From Acidobacteriota bacterium (GTDB lineage: Bacteria; Acidobacteriota; Terriglobia; Terriglobales; Acidobacteriaceae): a stretch of 64,000 nucleotides of DNA. The translations under genes were made by a program, and so were the position numbers. The DNA is taken from positions 62,001-126,000 of the forward strand of contig JAJYSV010000002.1 of assembly GCA_021793405.1 (NCBI GenBank), given 5' to 3'. Positions within the stretch are counted from its first letter, which is position 1. Each line of letters opens with the position of its first letter. Positions 3,885-6,086 of this stretch are shown here, piece by piece. The notes below the pieces were generated by a model. It saw only the letters and a list, made by a program, of their open reading frames with translations, searched no databases and was not told the DNA's origin.

Positions 3885-3990
3885 ACTGCGACTGTAGGAA
3901 CTCGCAGGCATGAAGTCAAGCTGCGAATTGCGCGGGATGTTGCTGAGGCTCAAGGCAAATGGCGCATGAGCGCCAACTGAAGGTCCGCGA

Positions 3991-4035
3991 GTTCACCGCA
4001 TTTTGGTGTATAGTAGCGTGAATGTTCACGGTGAA
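3991..4035 (+). promoter_or_regulatory. putative promoter and operator of the DNA methylase gene
   Basis: A TATAGT hexamer (4009-4014) ends 7 nt before the methylase ATG (4022), so transcription would start at or next to the start codon and the message may be leaderless. No good -35 hexamer is visible. Two repeats frame it: CACC-N7-GGTG at 3994-4008 and the perfect 11-bp palindrome TTCACGGTGAA at 4025-4035, just inside the coding region; the half site GTTCACCG at 3991 repeats the left arm. Placement over the promoter and start suggests a repressor site. The promoter and the operator role are both inferences. Confidence 0.45.
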
Positions 4036-5065
4036 GAGATCGATCGATGGAACCGCATTGCAGCGGCAGAATCGGCGTCTTCAGCGCCTGAAAACTCAGG
4101 GTGTGACACGCTCAACCGTATTCGTGCACCGAGAATGCAAACTGGCTCTAGATGATTTACGGCCCCACTTTGTCGATGCCGCTAAAGCCGAAGCTTTATC
4201 AGAATTGGTGCTTGAACTAGGAAAGAAGACAAAGCCGACGAATGTTGCACAGGTGAACCAGCTCAGTCCATTCAGGTATCCGGGAGGTAAGACTTGGCTA
4301 GTACCCGAGATTCGTAGCTGGCTCAGAGCTTCCAAGACTATCCCCGATGTATTCGTAGAGCCATTTGCAGGTGGAGCTATGGCTGGACTTACAGCCGCTG
4401 CGGAGGAACTTGCATATACAGTCGTTCTTTCCGAGTTGGATTCAGATGTAGCCGCTGTTTGGGAAACAATATTTGATGGGACGGACACGGCGGTTGAATG
4501 GCTTTGCAATCAGATCGCCAGCTTCGAGGTGTCTCTGGAAAATGTCCAGAAGGTACTCGCAGGCAATCCGAAAAGCGATGCGGCACGGGCGTTCCGCACC
4601 ATTGTCAAGAATCGTATGCAGCGCGGGGGCATCATGGCCGCTGGAGCAGGTTTAGTAAAGGAAGGAGAGGCGGGAAAGGGTCTCAGATCGCGTTGGTATC
4701 CCAAGACATTAGGAGAACGCATAAGAGGATTGCGAGATTTGCGAGATCGGATCACCTTCCAAAGAGGCGATGCCTTCGACACCATCCAACAATTCATCAC
4801 CAATCCAAACGCATTCTTCTTCATCGACCCGCCATACACCGCTGGCGGAAAGAAAGCCGGCAACCGCCTATACACTCATAACGAAGTCGATCACGAGCGC
4901 CTATTTTCTCTGATGGCGACCGCTCGCGGACCCGTGATGCTCACCTACGACGATGCGCCCGAGGTACGAGAAATGGCGATGCGGCATCAGTTCCGCATTC
5001 AGACCGTTCCCATGAAGAATACCCACCATGCAATCATTCGCGAATTGCTCATTCTGAAACCTTGA
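4022..5065 (+). CDS. D12-class (Dam-like) DNA adenine methyltransferase of an R-M system
   Basis: S-adenosylmethionine-dependent N6-adenine DNA methylase expected to protect the host from the convergent NotI-type nuclease. Alpha-class motif order is clear: FRYPGGK at 84-90, SAM-binding VEPFAGGA at about 112-119, acidic SELDSD at 137-142 and catalytic DPPY at 269-272. The 347 aa include about 80 residues ahead of the FRYPGGK motif, which in many Dam proteins lies near residue 10; within it, STVFVHRECK followed by a helix looks like a strand-helix DNA-binding unit (ribbon-helix-helix-like), a speculative reading. Base composition looks more AT-rich than its neighbours, suggesting transfer. The 3' end overlaps the nuclease gene by 17 bp on the opposite strand. 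Confidence 0.88.
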   Translation: MFTVKRSIDGTALQRQNRRLQRLKTQGVTRSTVFVHRECKLALDDLRPHFVDAAKAEALSELVLELGKKTKPTNVAQVNQLSPFRYPGGKTWLVPEIRSWLRASKTIPDVFVEPFAGGAMAGLTAAAEELAYTVVLSELDSDVAAVWETIFDGTDTAVEWLCNQIASFEVSLENVQKVLAGNPKSDAARAFRTIVKNRMQRGGIMAAGAGLVKEGEAGKGLRSRWYPKTLGERIRGLRDLRDRITFQRGDAFDTIQQFITNPNAFFFIDPPYTAGGKKAGNRLYTHNEVDHERLFSLMATARGPVMLTYDDAPEVREMAMRHQFRIQTVPMKNTHHAIIRELLILKP

Positions 5066-6086
5066 AAACTTTTTTCGTTCGGCTTTCGTCCGCAATCACA
5101 TTCTTCAGGCTCTGAGTAAAGTCAGCTTTGCTCAGAGGTTCCGTGGCGTTTAGTGCAATTCGTGAACCATCCAGGCTTGTAAAGACCACCTCGCCTGCAG
5201 TAAGGTGCAGATGTTCGTCGTAGTCCACGATGAACCACGCCACGTCCGCATTTTCCCGACGCTCCTTATCGCTCCGCGCTCGCGGAGAGGGATCGGCAAG
5301 CCTATTCATGTTGCTGTAGAAAAACCGATCTACGACAACTACAATCTTCTTTCCCCAACTGCGCAGCACAGGCACTTTTACGTCCAACTGGGGCCATAGT
5401 CGCTTGGGCCCACTGCTGCGGTAATCGGGTCGCCGTTTGCCAGTCGGGAATAGTAGGTCAGACGGGGCATGAGCGTAAGCGTCGAATTCAAGACGCATCC
5501 TTGCGCCGGAGAAGTAGAGGGCTTGAGTTTCCACAGCGCACCATTCCAACTCACCCGCAGAAACGGTTTCTGGATTCACTAGTATCCAATCGATACGTCC
5601 TGCCTGCTTTTCTTCCTCTTTGGCTTCGGCTGCCATGTCCTCCGCAATGTCAGTTGGACGCTGAACGTCGGCAATTTTTCTGAGGAACGGGGTTTCCTTG
5701 ACCACCGTGACCTTCGCGGTATCCAACATCTTCTCCGCGATCCAGGAGAATAGGGTCTTTCCTGGTTCCACCGACTGAATAAACCGAGAAGGGCACATTG
5801 TCACTACCTTGTCCCCGGCTACCATGGAACCTTCAGCAGCATATTTTCGGACCGAGCATACTCCGCTTGCCTTGTTGCACCGTGCTCCAGGTATGAGAGT
5901 CGAGAGAAAGGGGCAAACGGGCGCTCCGGTAAGGGAGTTTTCCTGATCCTGCCTCGCTGCGAGACGACCAAAGGTCTGCCGTTCCTCCGGCGTCAACAGT
6001 CCGATATCTTTGCCAAACCACTCGGCGATGCCGTAGCGGGCGGCTGGTATTCGCTCTTTTCGGGCTTCGCGGGCTTTTCTCGCCAT
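5049..6086 (-). CDS. NotI-family type II restriction endonuclease
   Basis: 345-aa protein with the hallmarks of the NotI family. Four cysteines at 58, 70, 77 and 98 (CPF, RC-NKASGVC, MCPSRF) match the iron-binding Cys4 site of NotI. A PD-(D/E)xK-like core follows: IDWIL (Asp166) and VETQ (Glu186, Gln188), comparable to the D...ExQ catalytic set of NotI. The C-terminal third (KRLWPQLDVKVPVL, AWFIVDYD) also fits. The ATG at 6086 has GAGAGGA about 7 nt upstream. It is convergent with the methylase and shares its last 17 bp, so the two messages would be antisense at their 3' ends. The target site cannot be read from sequence; the partner's class implies an adenine in it. Confidence 0.8.
   Translation of the reverse strand: MARKAREARKERIPAARYGIAEWFGKDIGLLTPEERQTFGRLAARQDQENSLTGAPVCPFLSTLIPGARCNKASGVCSVRKYAAEGSMVAGDKVVTMCPSRFIQSVEPGKTLFSWIAEKMLDTAKVTVVKETPFLRKIADVQRPTDIAEDMAAEAKEEEKQAGRIDWILVNPETVSAGELEWCAVETQALYFSGARMRLEFDAYAHAPSDLLFPTGKRRPDYRSSGPKRLWPQLDVKVPVLRSWGKKIVVVVDRFFYSNMNRLADPSPRARSDKERRENADVAWFIVDYDEHLHLTAGEVVFTSLDGSRIALNATEPLSKADFTQSLKNVIADESRTKKVFKVSE

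Follow-up and report, generated by a model that had tools for sequence, protein, structure and literature searches.

Which base is protected when a nuclease with the fold of NotI is accompanied by a methylase of the D12 class, and how is such a pair controlled? The question is raised by two convergent genes in a 64,000-nucleotide stretch of an Acidobacteriota genome (assembly GCA_021793405.1, contig JAJYSV010000002.1, positions 62,001 to 126,000), hereafter called the window. A sequence-only reading of this DNA had described a NotI-family nuclease and an adenine methylase in an unusual, overlapping layout. We favor another reading, with a probability of about two in three: a Type II restriction-modification system whose methylase modifies cytosine at N4 and carries an N-terminal module that, with a palindrome at the methylase's own promoter, makes up a self-regulating cassette. 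What is new here is the regulation, i.e. the module and the palindrome; the biological purpose of the system is ordinary and its control part is unusual.

A NotI-fold nuclease and a D12-class methylase

The convergent pair of reading frames with its short shared end is present as the sequence-only reading had described it (Table 1). The Pfam search that had been proposed as a check on the nuclease returned PF12183 (NotI) with 147.7 bits against a curated cut-off of 22, and the methylase matched PF02086 (MethyltransfD12), also above the curated cut-off. No other PF12183 gene is present in the window's genome. In an alignment of 55 nuclease sequences (that of the window and 54 relatives), C77, C98, D166, E186, and Q188 were invariant and C58 and C70 were kept in at least 90%, so that both the four cysteines and the D166/E186/Q188 core picked out earlier are conserved among homologs; the nuclease has a further, fifth cysteine, Cys 183. 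The Q that stands in place of K is also found in the core of NotI, according to the consulted part of PMC4081073. The FRYPGGK and DPPY motifs of the methylase are both there and both conserved in relatives. The pairing of a NotI-fold nuclease with a D12-class methylase is thus supported, and the two genes very likely form a Type II restriction-modification pair, for which we infer restriction activity.

The assignment of the nuclease to the NotI family stood in part: the NotI fold and the PF12183 match held up, and the connection of PF12183 to NotI itself did not. The nuclease model (mean predicted local distance difference test score, pLDDT, of 92.9) aligned with NotI bound to DNA (3c25_B) over 270 residues with a Z-score of 17.3, a root-mean-square deviation of 4.3, and 18% identity, and with 3bvq_B with a Z-score of 16.4; the next-ranked entry reached only 8.1. 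The sequence of NotI, for which we used the one identical to PDB 3bvq, matched no Pfam family at an E-value of 0.01, PF12183 included. At the same threshold PF12183 did not match L140, which at 43% identity is the nearest relative of NotI that was found and which has a C5 methylase (acting at carbon 5 of cytosine) upstream in tandem. NotI was not found in PDB searches with a profile of 14 nuclease relatives (E 1) or with the L107 nuclease alone (E 10), and it was not among the 50 matches that plain Foldseek listed for the nuclease model. When NotI was placed among 1000 shuffled decoys, the 55-sequence window-like profile failed to retrieve it (E 0.47), and the 14-sequence profile (7e-6) and a broader profile (1.1e-10) succeeded. 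Because PF12183, the Pfam family named after NotI, misses NotI, the link between the two proteins rests on the fold comparison and on the common Cys4 pattern. Judged by its model, the window protein is a NotI-fold nuclease; at 18% identity, NotI is too distant for its recognition site to be carried over.

Chemistry of the methylase

The D12 class had been taken to indicate an adenine methylase and, from this, a target different from that of NotI. This argument is not borne out by the nearest solved relative of the enzyme or by the substitution of C5 methylases described below. The only PDB sequence match of the methylase at E 1 was M.CbeI (7M6B, 2.8e-9); a profile of the methylase found the same entry at 6.9e-13, with the next match at 0.22. 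M.CbeI (residues 6-262) scored 50-56 bits with methylase profiles, against 10-19 bits for Escherichia coli Dam, and Foldseek placed 7m6b first for the methylase model (2.2e-15) and Dam next (3.1e-12). With the Dam subfamily model TIGR00571, the methylase obtained 45.8 bits, below the cut-off of 114.85. M.CbeI belongs to the alpha class, produces N4-methylcytosine (m4C) in GGCC, and formerly carried the annotation of a D12 N6-adenine methylase (excerpts of PMC3425538 and PMC8616854). Because this m4C enzyme carries a D12 adenine annotation, the D12 name does not imply adenine, and for the window's enzyme N4-cytosine is more likely than adenine. Two points weigh against this assignment: the margin of M.CbeI over Dam in the fold comparison is small (template modeling score by target of 0.83 vs 0.79), and M.CbeI, at about 20% identity, is too distant for its specificity to be carried over. 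If the assignment is correct, proteins named DNA adenine methylase, e.g. those of pEST4011-like plasmids, are misnamed and make m4C.

A cytosine target is also suggested by the exchange of partners between closely related nucleases. The nucleases of L014, L063, L068, and L072, which are paired with C5 methylases, are 81-88% identical to those of L016, L019, L074, and L077, which are paired with D12 enzymes that share 71-72% identity with the window methylase. Nucleases this similar very probably cut one site, and the C5 and D12 enzymes would therefore protect the same cytosine-containing site. Compared with the window's nuclease, those of the four D12-paired loci are 43-44% identical by local alignment and 38-39% identical by multiple alignment. 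The methylase domains alone were placed in a tree (85 rows, quick method; L050, L051, and L090 left out), in which the same four loci join the window in a clade of 21 rows with a support of 98 in the Shimodaira-Hasegawa-like approximate likelihood ratio test (SH-aLRT); this clade is nested in one formed by all 29 rows that bear the N-terminal module (SH-aLRT 94). In a tree of the nucleases (110 rows, quick method, with long branches; four short rows left out), the four loci group with the C5-paired nucleases, and partner type must have changed eight times or more.

Were the enzyme a true N6-adenine methylase, the target would contain A, unlike NotI-like sites made of G and C only, and antisense 3' ends might delay the nuclease. 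The N6-adenine name of PF02086 and the annotation of relatives as DNA adenine methylases favor this alternative, as does the reduced number of A-containing CGTACG sites in Photorhabdus carriers (see below). We consider it unlikely, given the m4C activity of the closest solved relative, the replacement of D12 by C5 methylases, and the variable gene overlap to which we turn now.

Layout and overlap of the pair

In order to determine how often the pair recurs, we collected loci from three sources. A scan of species genomes yielded at least 559 nuclease relatives; the 80 best were retained, a set biased towards the window's kind. Samples of phyla contained PF12183-type loci in 13 of 396 genomes (the window's phylum), 5 of 396, and 13 of 398, the seed genome being included in each, and plasmids provided 10 records, of which 7 were examined. 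Neighbors were classified by profiles, and 114 loci remained after second copies (L001, L020, L101, L106, L108) and a locus without a hit (L105) had been dropped. A D12 gene adjoins the PF12183 gene in 88 of them (59 convergent, 21 tandem with the nuclease first, and 8 tandem with the methylase first) and a C5 gene in 20 (12 convergent, 7 tandem with the methylase first, and 1 with the nuclease first). Six loci have neither partner, and in four of these (L012, L013, L115, L119) the neighbor is of the N6_N4_Mtase family. The convergent layout, which had been called unusual, is therefore normal for this group: the convergent D12 arrangement, 59 of 114 loci, is the commonest among the relatives found. 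Within the phylum samples it accounts for 8 of 28 loci, including the window (the seed loci L101 and L108, as well as L105 and L106, are not counted).

The coding regions overlap by 4-120 bp in 51 of the 59 convergent D12 loci. In overlaps of at least 77 bp, 20-35 methylase residues lie past the last conserved motif (14 of 16 loci were measurable), and these long overlaps consist mostly of codons of the methylase C-terminal tail, reaching about 6 residues into the conserved end. A restraint of the nuclease by antisense 3' ends, as had been proposed, has precedents: the available part of PMC3874152 describes antisense control for EcoRI and Eco29kI, and a 3' overlap of 123 bp through which the BsrG toxin is controlled. 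No support for such a restraint was found here: the overlap is 17 bp, and the tandem layout accounts for 29 of the 88 loci with D12; the variability of the overlap speaks against a conserved antisense role. As a main mechanism, antisense control through the overlap was accordingly rejected, since overlaps range from none to 120 bp, mostly tail codons, and tandem relatives have no overlap.

Several further observations were made among these loci. Two loci, L028 (3864-4885, Candidatus Glomeribacter) and L103 (1333-2203), have a nuclease divided between two frames, and their methylase domain is open. A gene similar to the Vsr repair endonuclease lies near 8 of the 20 C5-paired loci in the fetched flanks (L011, L014, L033, L035, L045, L055, L068, and L072). 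A viral collection holds 13 contigs (L269-L281, 10 distinct loci) in which a gene for a NotI-fold nuclease is accompanied by one for a D12 or C5 enzyme, and named phage records gave no match to the nuclease. Literature searches on NotI-family partners and their methylation listed nothing on these pairs, and none of the results concerned M.NotI, which the sequence-only reading had taken to be an N4-cytosine methylase.

Candidate target site

We selected CGGCCG for testing because it is contained in the NotI site and has the site of M.CbeI as its center. PF12183 carriers, 2 of 12 Photorhabdus genomes, have 143 and 109 CGGCCG sites, against 357-661 in the ten non-carriers, and a reversed control site does not separate them (833 and 680 in carriers vs 639-1382). 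In the carrier G321, 30 CGGCCG sites were counted in 2.4 Mb, and its CGGCCG/GCCGGC ratio is by a wide margin the lowest in a set of 50 family genomes, nine of which were tested for PF12183. On this basis, CGGCCG would be the leading candidate site for the window's clade, at roughly even odds. Four results weigh against it: CGTACG separates the Photorhabdus carriers too (70 and 88 vs 128-228); in 200-kb samples of 2 carriers and 3 non-carriers, the reduction of GGTACC, CGTACG, and GGATCC is about equally clear; the Marinobacter carrier (1 of 100 genomes) has 2945 CGGCCG sites, the sixth highest number of the 100; and the window's genome ranks only 13th lowest of 50 for the CGGCCG/GCCGGC ratio.

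The small genome of G321, however, strongly avoids many 6-base palindromes (CAGCTG 0 vs 30.5 expected; stretches L247-L256). Avoidance of CGGCCG in the window's own genome was set aside as evidence: in 392 kb it has the smallest z among 64 palindromes, but the non-carrier G217 is equally low (0.58). In the same 392 kb, the NotI 8-mer GCGGCCGC shows no avoidance, with 32 sites seen and 33.4 expected.

An N-terminal module and a palindrome at the methylase start

The first 80 or so residues of the methylase form a module; an alignment of 16 sequences, among them that of the window, shows it to be conserved in Marinobacter, Photorhabdus, Methylophilaceae, Edaphobacter, Granulicella, Propioniferax, and plasmid copies. 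Many D12 partners do not have it. The stretch TRSTVFVH and the predicted helices suggest a ribbon-helix-helix fold. In a literature search on ribbon-helix-helix proteins and restriction-modification, the sole mention found concerns toxin-antitoxin regulators.

Aligned upstream regions of the 21 loci looked at have a palindrome, TCCGTGAAyrTTCACGGA, in common at the methylase start. A scan of the loci that allowed up to 2 mismatches was positive for 27 of 30 module-bearing loci, and in all 27 a copy lies no more than 200 bp from the methylase start used. The positive loci have two copies in 16 cases and one in 11. Among the 59 other D12 loci the palindrome occurs in 3, at least 1.7 kb from the methylase in each, so that none of the 59 has it near the methylase, and none of the 26 loci without D12 has it. 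When up to 1 mismatch was allowed, no hit was obtained in 2.33 Mb of other DNA sampled from genomes or in 20 further stretches of the window's genome. The window holds one copy; the other 3 matches in the 64 kb differ from the palindrome at 3 positions, in line with chance expectation. The 30 module-bearing loci include the 21 discovery loci, L020 (a second plasmid copy), close plasmid relatives, and four with a diverged module, three of which have the palindrome; because the loci are related, the Fisher value for the association of module and palindrome overstates the evidence.

The viral-collection contigs, fetched later, contributed two distinct module-bearing loci among the 13. One, an identical sequence in four contigs (L269-L272), has one perfect copy of the palindrome. 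The eight remaining contigs have C5 partners, and none of the eight has the palindrome. The second module-bearing locus, L274, has a different palindrome, TCATAAATATTTATCA, at the same place (5909 and upstream), and operator and module may diverge together.

Other N-terminal additions were seen on D12 partners. Two from Armatimonadota have HTH_17, a helix-turn-helix family, at the N-terminus, above the cut-off (L060:2684-2965, 2.1e-6; L080:3679-3966, 1e-7), and a second common module (TTVIRVP or similar) occurs in L066, L069, L087, L094, and L099 (Verrucomicrobiota and one Pseudomonadota).

Three points count against a module that acts on this palindrome as a repressor: it has no Pfam or PDB family match; three module-bearing loci (L032, L052, L102), and L274 among the viral contigs, lack the usual palindrome at up to 2 mismatches; and 21 of the 30 loci are those in which the palindrome was discovered. 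The module could instead belong to target recognition by the methylase, with some other regulator binding the promoter palindrome. The lack of a recognized DNA-binding family would fit this explanation, as would the D12 partners that do without the module and the loci with module and no usual palindrome (in L052, with a diverged module). It appears improbable, because the palindrome accompanies the module across several phyla and is found neither near the methylase in the other D12 loci nor in the 2.33 Mb of other DNA, and HTH_17 at the same place in two other D12 partners suggests a slot for DNA-binding modules.

Promoter and proposed mechanism

All 9 two-copy loci examined show one arrangement: palindrome, TTGACN, 17 or 18 bases, TAnnnT, palindrome. 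The window has a TTCACC resembling a -35 element (3992-3997) and TATAGT (4009-4014), separated by a short spacer of 11 bases, where the TTGACN of relatives is followed by 17-18 bases; a scan for consensus promoters did not pick up the window's methylase promoter. The short spacer tells against the self-regulation reading in the window itself, and this methylase promoter may differ from those of the relatives. No copy of the palindrome was seen within 1 kb of the nuclease start in module-bearing loci, and a comparison of the window's nuclease promoter with those of five close relatives revealed no common element. Since no palindrome was seen near the nuclease start, the cassette would control only itself, and self-only control would fit its place beside different nucleases, in tandem or convergent.

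In the mechanism that we propose, the nuclease, with its NotI fold, Cys4 site, and D/E-x-Q core, would cut a short GC-rich palindrome, and the alpha-class D12 methylase would protect that site, most likely through N4-methylation of cytosine. The N-terminal module would bind the palindrome at the methylase's own promoter and thereby close this promoter. With two copies bracketing the -35 and -10 elements, as in many relatives, the first methylase molecules produced in a newly entered cell would turn their own gene down once enough had accumulated; the window's single copy is presumed to work as well. Transcription of the nuclease would start at a promoter of its own, some 2 kb distant. Self-regulation of the methylase is likely in the family as a whole.

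A more far-reaching possibility, to which we give somewhat less than even odds, is a mobile antidote cassette, composed of a CGGCCG N4-cytosine methylase, a previously undescribed repressor module, and its operators, that passes between phyla as a unit and has taken the place of a C5 methylase next to a closely similar NotI-fold nuclease. If so, one site would be protected by two chemistries and regulation would travel with the antidote rather than with the nuclease; a safe swap of methylases in restriction systems would then be explained by an antidote that brings its own control.

That the system is instead decaying in this genome, with an altered promoter, a nuclease that may be silent, and a methylase left as an orphan, is the least probable explanation: the short promoter spacer, the missing upstream palindrome, a candidate-site avoidance not clearly beyond the family range, and known decay elsewhere (the split nuclease of L028) point that way, but both reading frames are full length with conserved residues, a poor promoter consensus is a weak argument, and a single palindrome is no sign of decay because it is common, being the state of 11 of the 27 positive loci.

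Features of the locus

Table 1 Features of the restriction-modification locus in the window.
Feature	Position	Strand	Basis
Possible methylase promoter: TTCACC, 11-base spacer, TATAGT	3992..4014	+	Sequence; alignment
Operator-like palindrome GCGTGAATGTTCACGG	4016..4031		1 mismatch to CCGTGAANNTTCACGG; conserved across relatives; ATG 4022 inside
D12-class (alpha) DNA methyltransferase, 347 aa, probably N4-cytosine	4022..5065	+	PF02086, E 2.3e-12; M.CbeI 7M6B match; model pLDDT 85
N-terminal methylase module, ~80 residues, putatively ribbon-helix-helix-like	4022..4261	+	16-sequence alignment; predicted helices 10-25, 37-51, 53-70
Methyltransferase domain, residues 86-319	4277..4978	+	PF02086 match
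Tail-to-tail overlap of both coding regions, 17 bp	5049..5065		Reading frame coordinates; sequence
NotI-fold restriction endonuclease, 345 aa	5049..6086	-	PF12183, E 4.7e-43; model pLDDT 92.9; 3c25 Z 17.3
Catalytic core D166 / E186-x-Q188	5523..5591	-	Invariant in 55 sequences
Cys4 metal-site segment (C58, C70, C77, C98)	5793..5915	-	Conserved; CPF...C.K...GVC...CP.R pattern also in NotI

The methylase/nuclease pair lies directly upstream of the gene hrcA. An inverted repeat, TGGCGCatgaGCGCCA, is located at 3960-3975, between the starts of hrcA and the methylase, and no CIRCE element was found in the window with up to 3 mismatches allowed. One relative was compared as a possible empty insertion site, but its hrcA and aldolase genes are separated by about 19 kb, which makes the comparison uninformative.

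Comparison with known systems

NotI (3BVQ/3C25) shares with the window nuclease the fold, the Cys4 pattern, and the E-x-Q core; the two differ in sequence (16-18% identity), and NotI, like L140, is missed by PF12183. M.CbeI, the closest solved relative of the methylase, has the DPPY motif and is likewise an enzyme with a D12 adenine annotation, although it makes m4C; its low identity (~20%) sets it apart, and because its match starts at residue 6 of 287, it has no comparable N-terminal module. The candidate site CGGCCG is that of EagI, for which M.EagI is described, in the excerpt of PMC4722110 available, as a C5 enzyme acting on the inner C, a chemistry unlike that proposed for the window methylase. 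In EcoRI and Eco29kI, antisense transcription limits the nuclease (part of PMC3874152), and it arises there from reverse promoters inside the operon, whereas in the window only the coding 3' ends overlap. The plasmid pairs of pEST4011, Variovorax, and Aeromonas (RefSeq) contain both protein families, a methylase 71-72% identical to that of the window, the module, and the palindromes; unlike the window, they are in tandem, and their nucleases are 43-44% identical (local alignment).

For regulation, the nearest parallel is provided by dual-function methylases. M.Ecl18kI and M.EcoRII are C5 enzymes. So is M.SsoII, as stated in the consulted portion of PMC3978073. All three are methylases with a fused repressor domain that controls genes of the system (PMC12707154, in part), and our proposal of a repressor module is made by analogy with them. 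Theirs is a helix-turn-helix at the N-terminus; the window methylase belongs to the D12 class, its module matches no recognized family, and no palindrome was seen at the nuclease promoter. In both cases, a methylase is fused to a part that binds DNA, or in the window's case may do so, and two features of a dual-function enzyme, an extra N-terminal domain and a conserved palindrome at its own promoter, are found here, in the window with one copy, which supplies a testable operator sequence for a self-regulating methylase.

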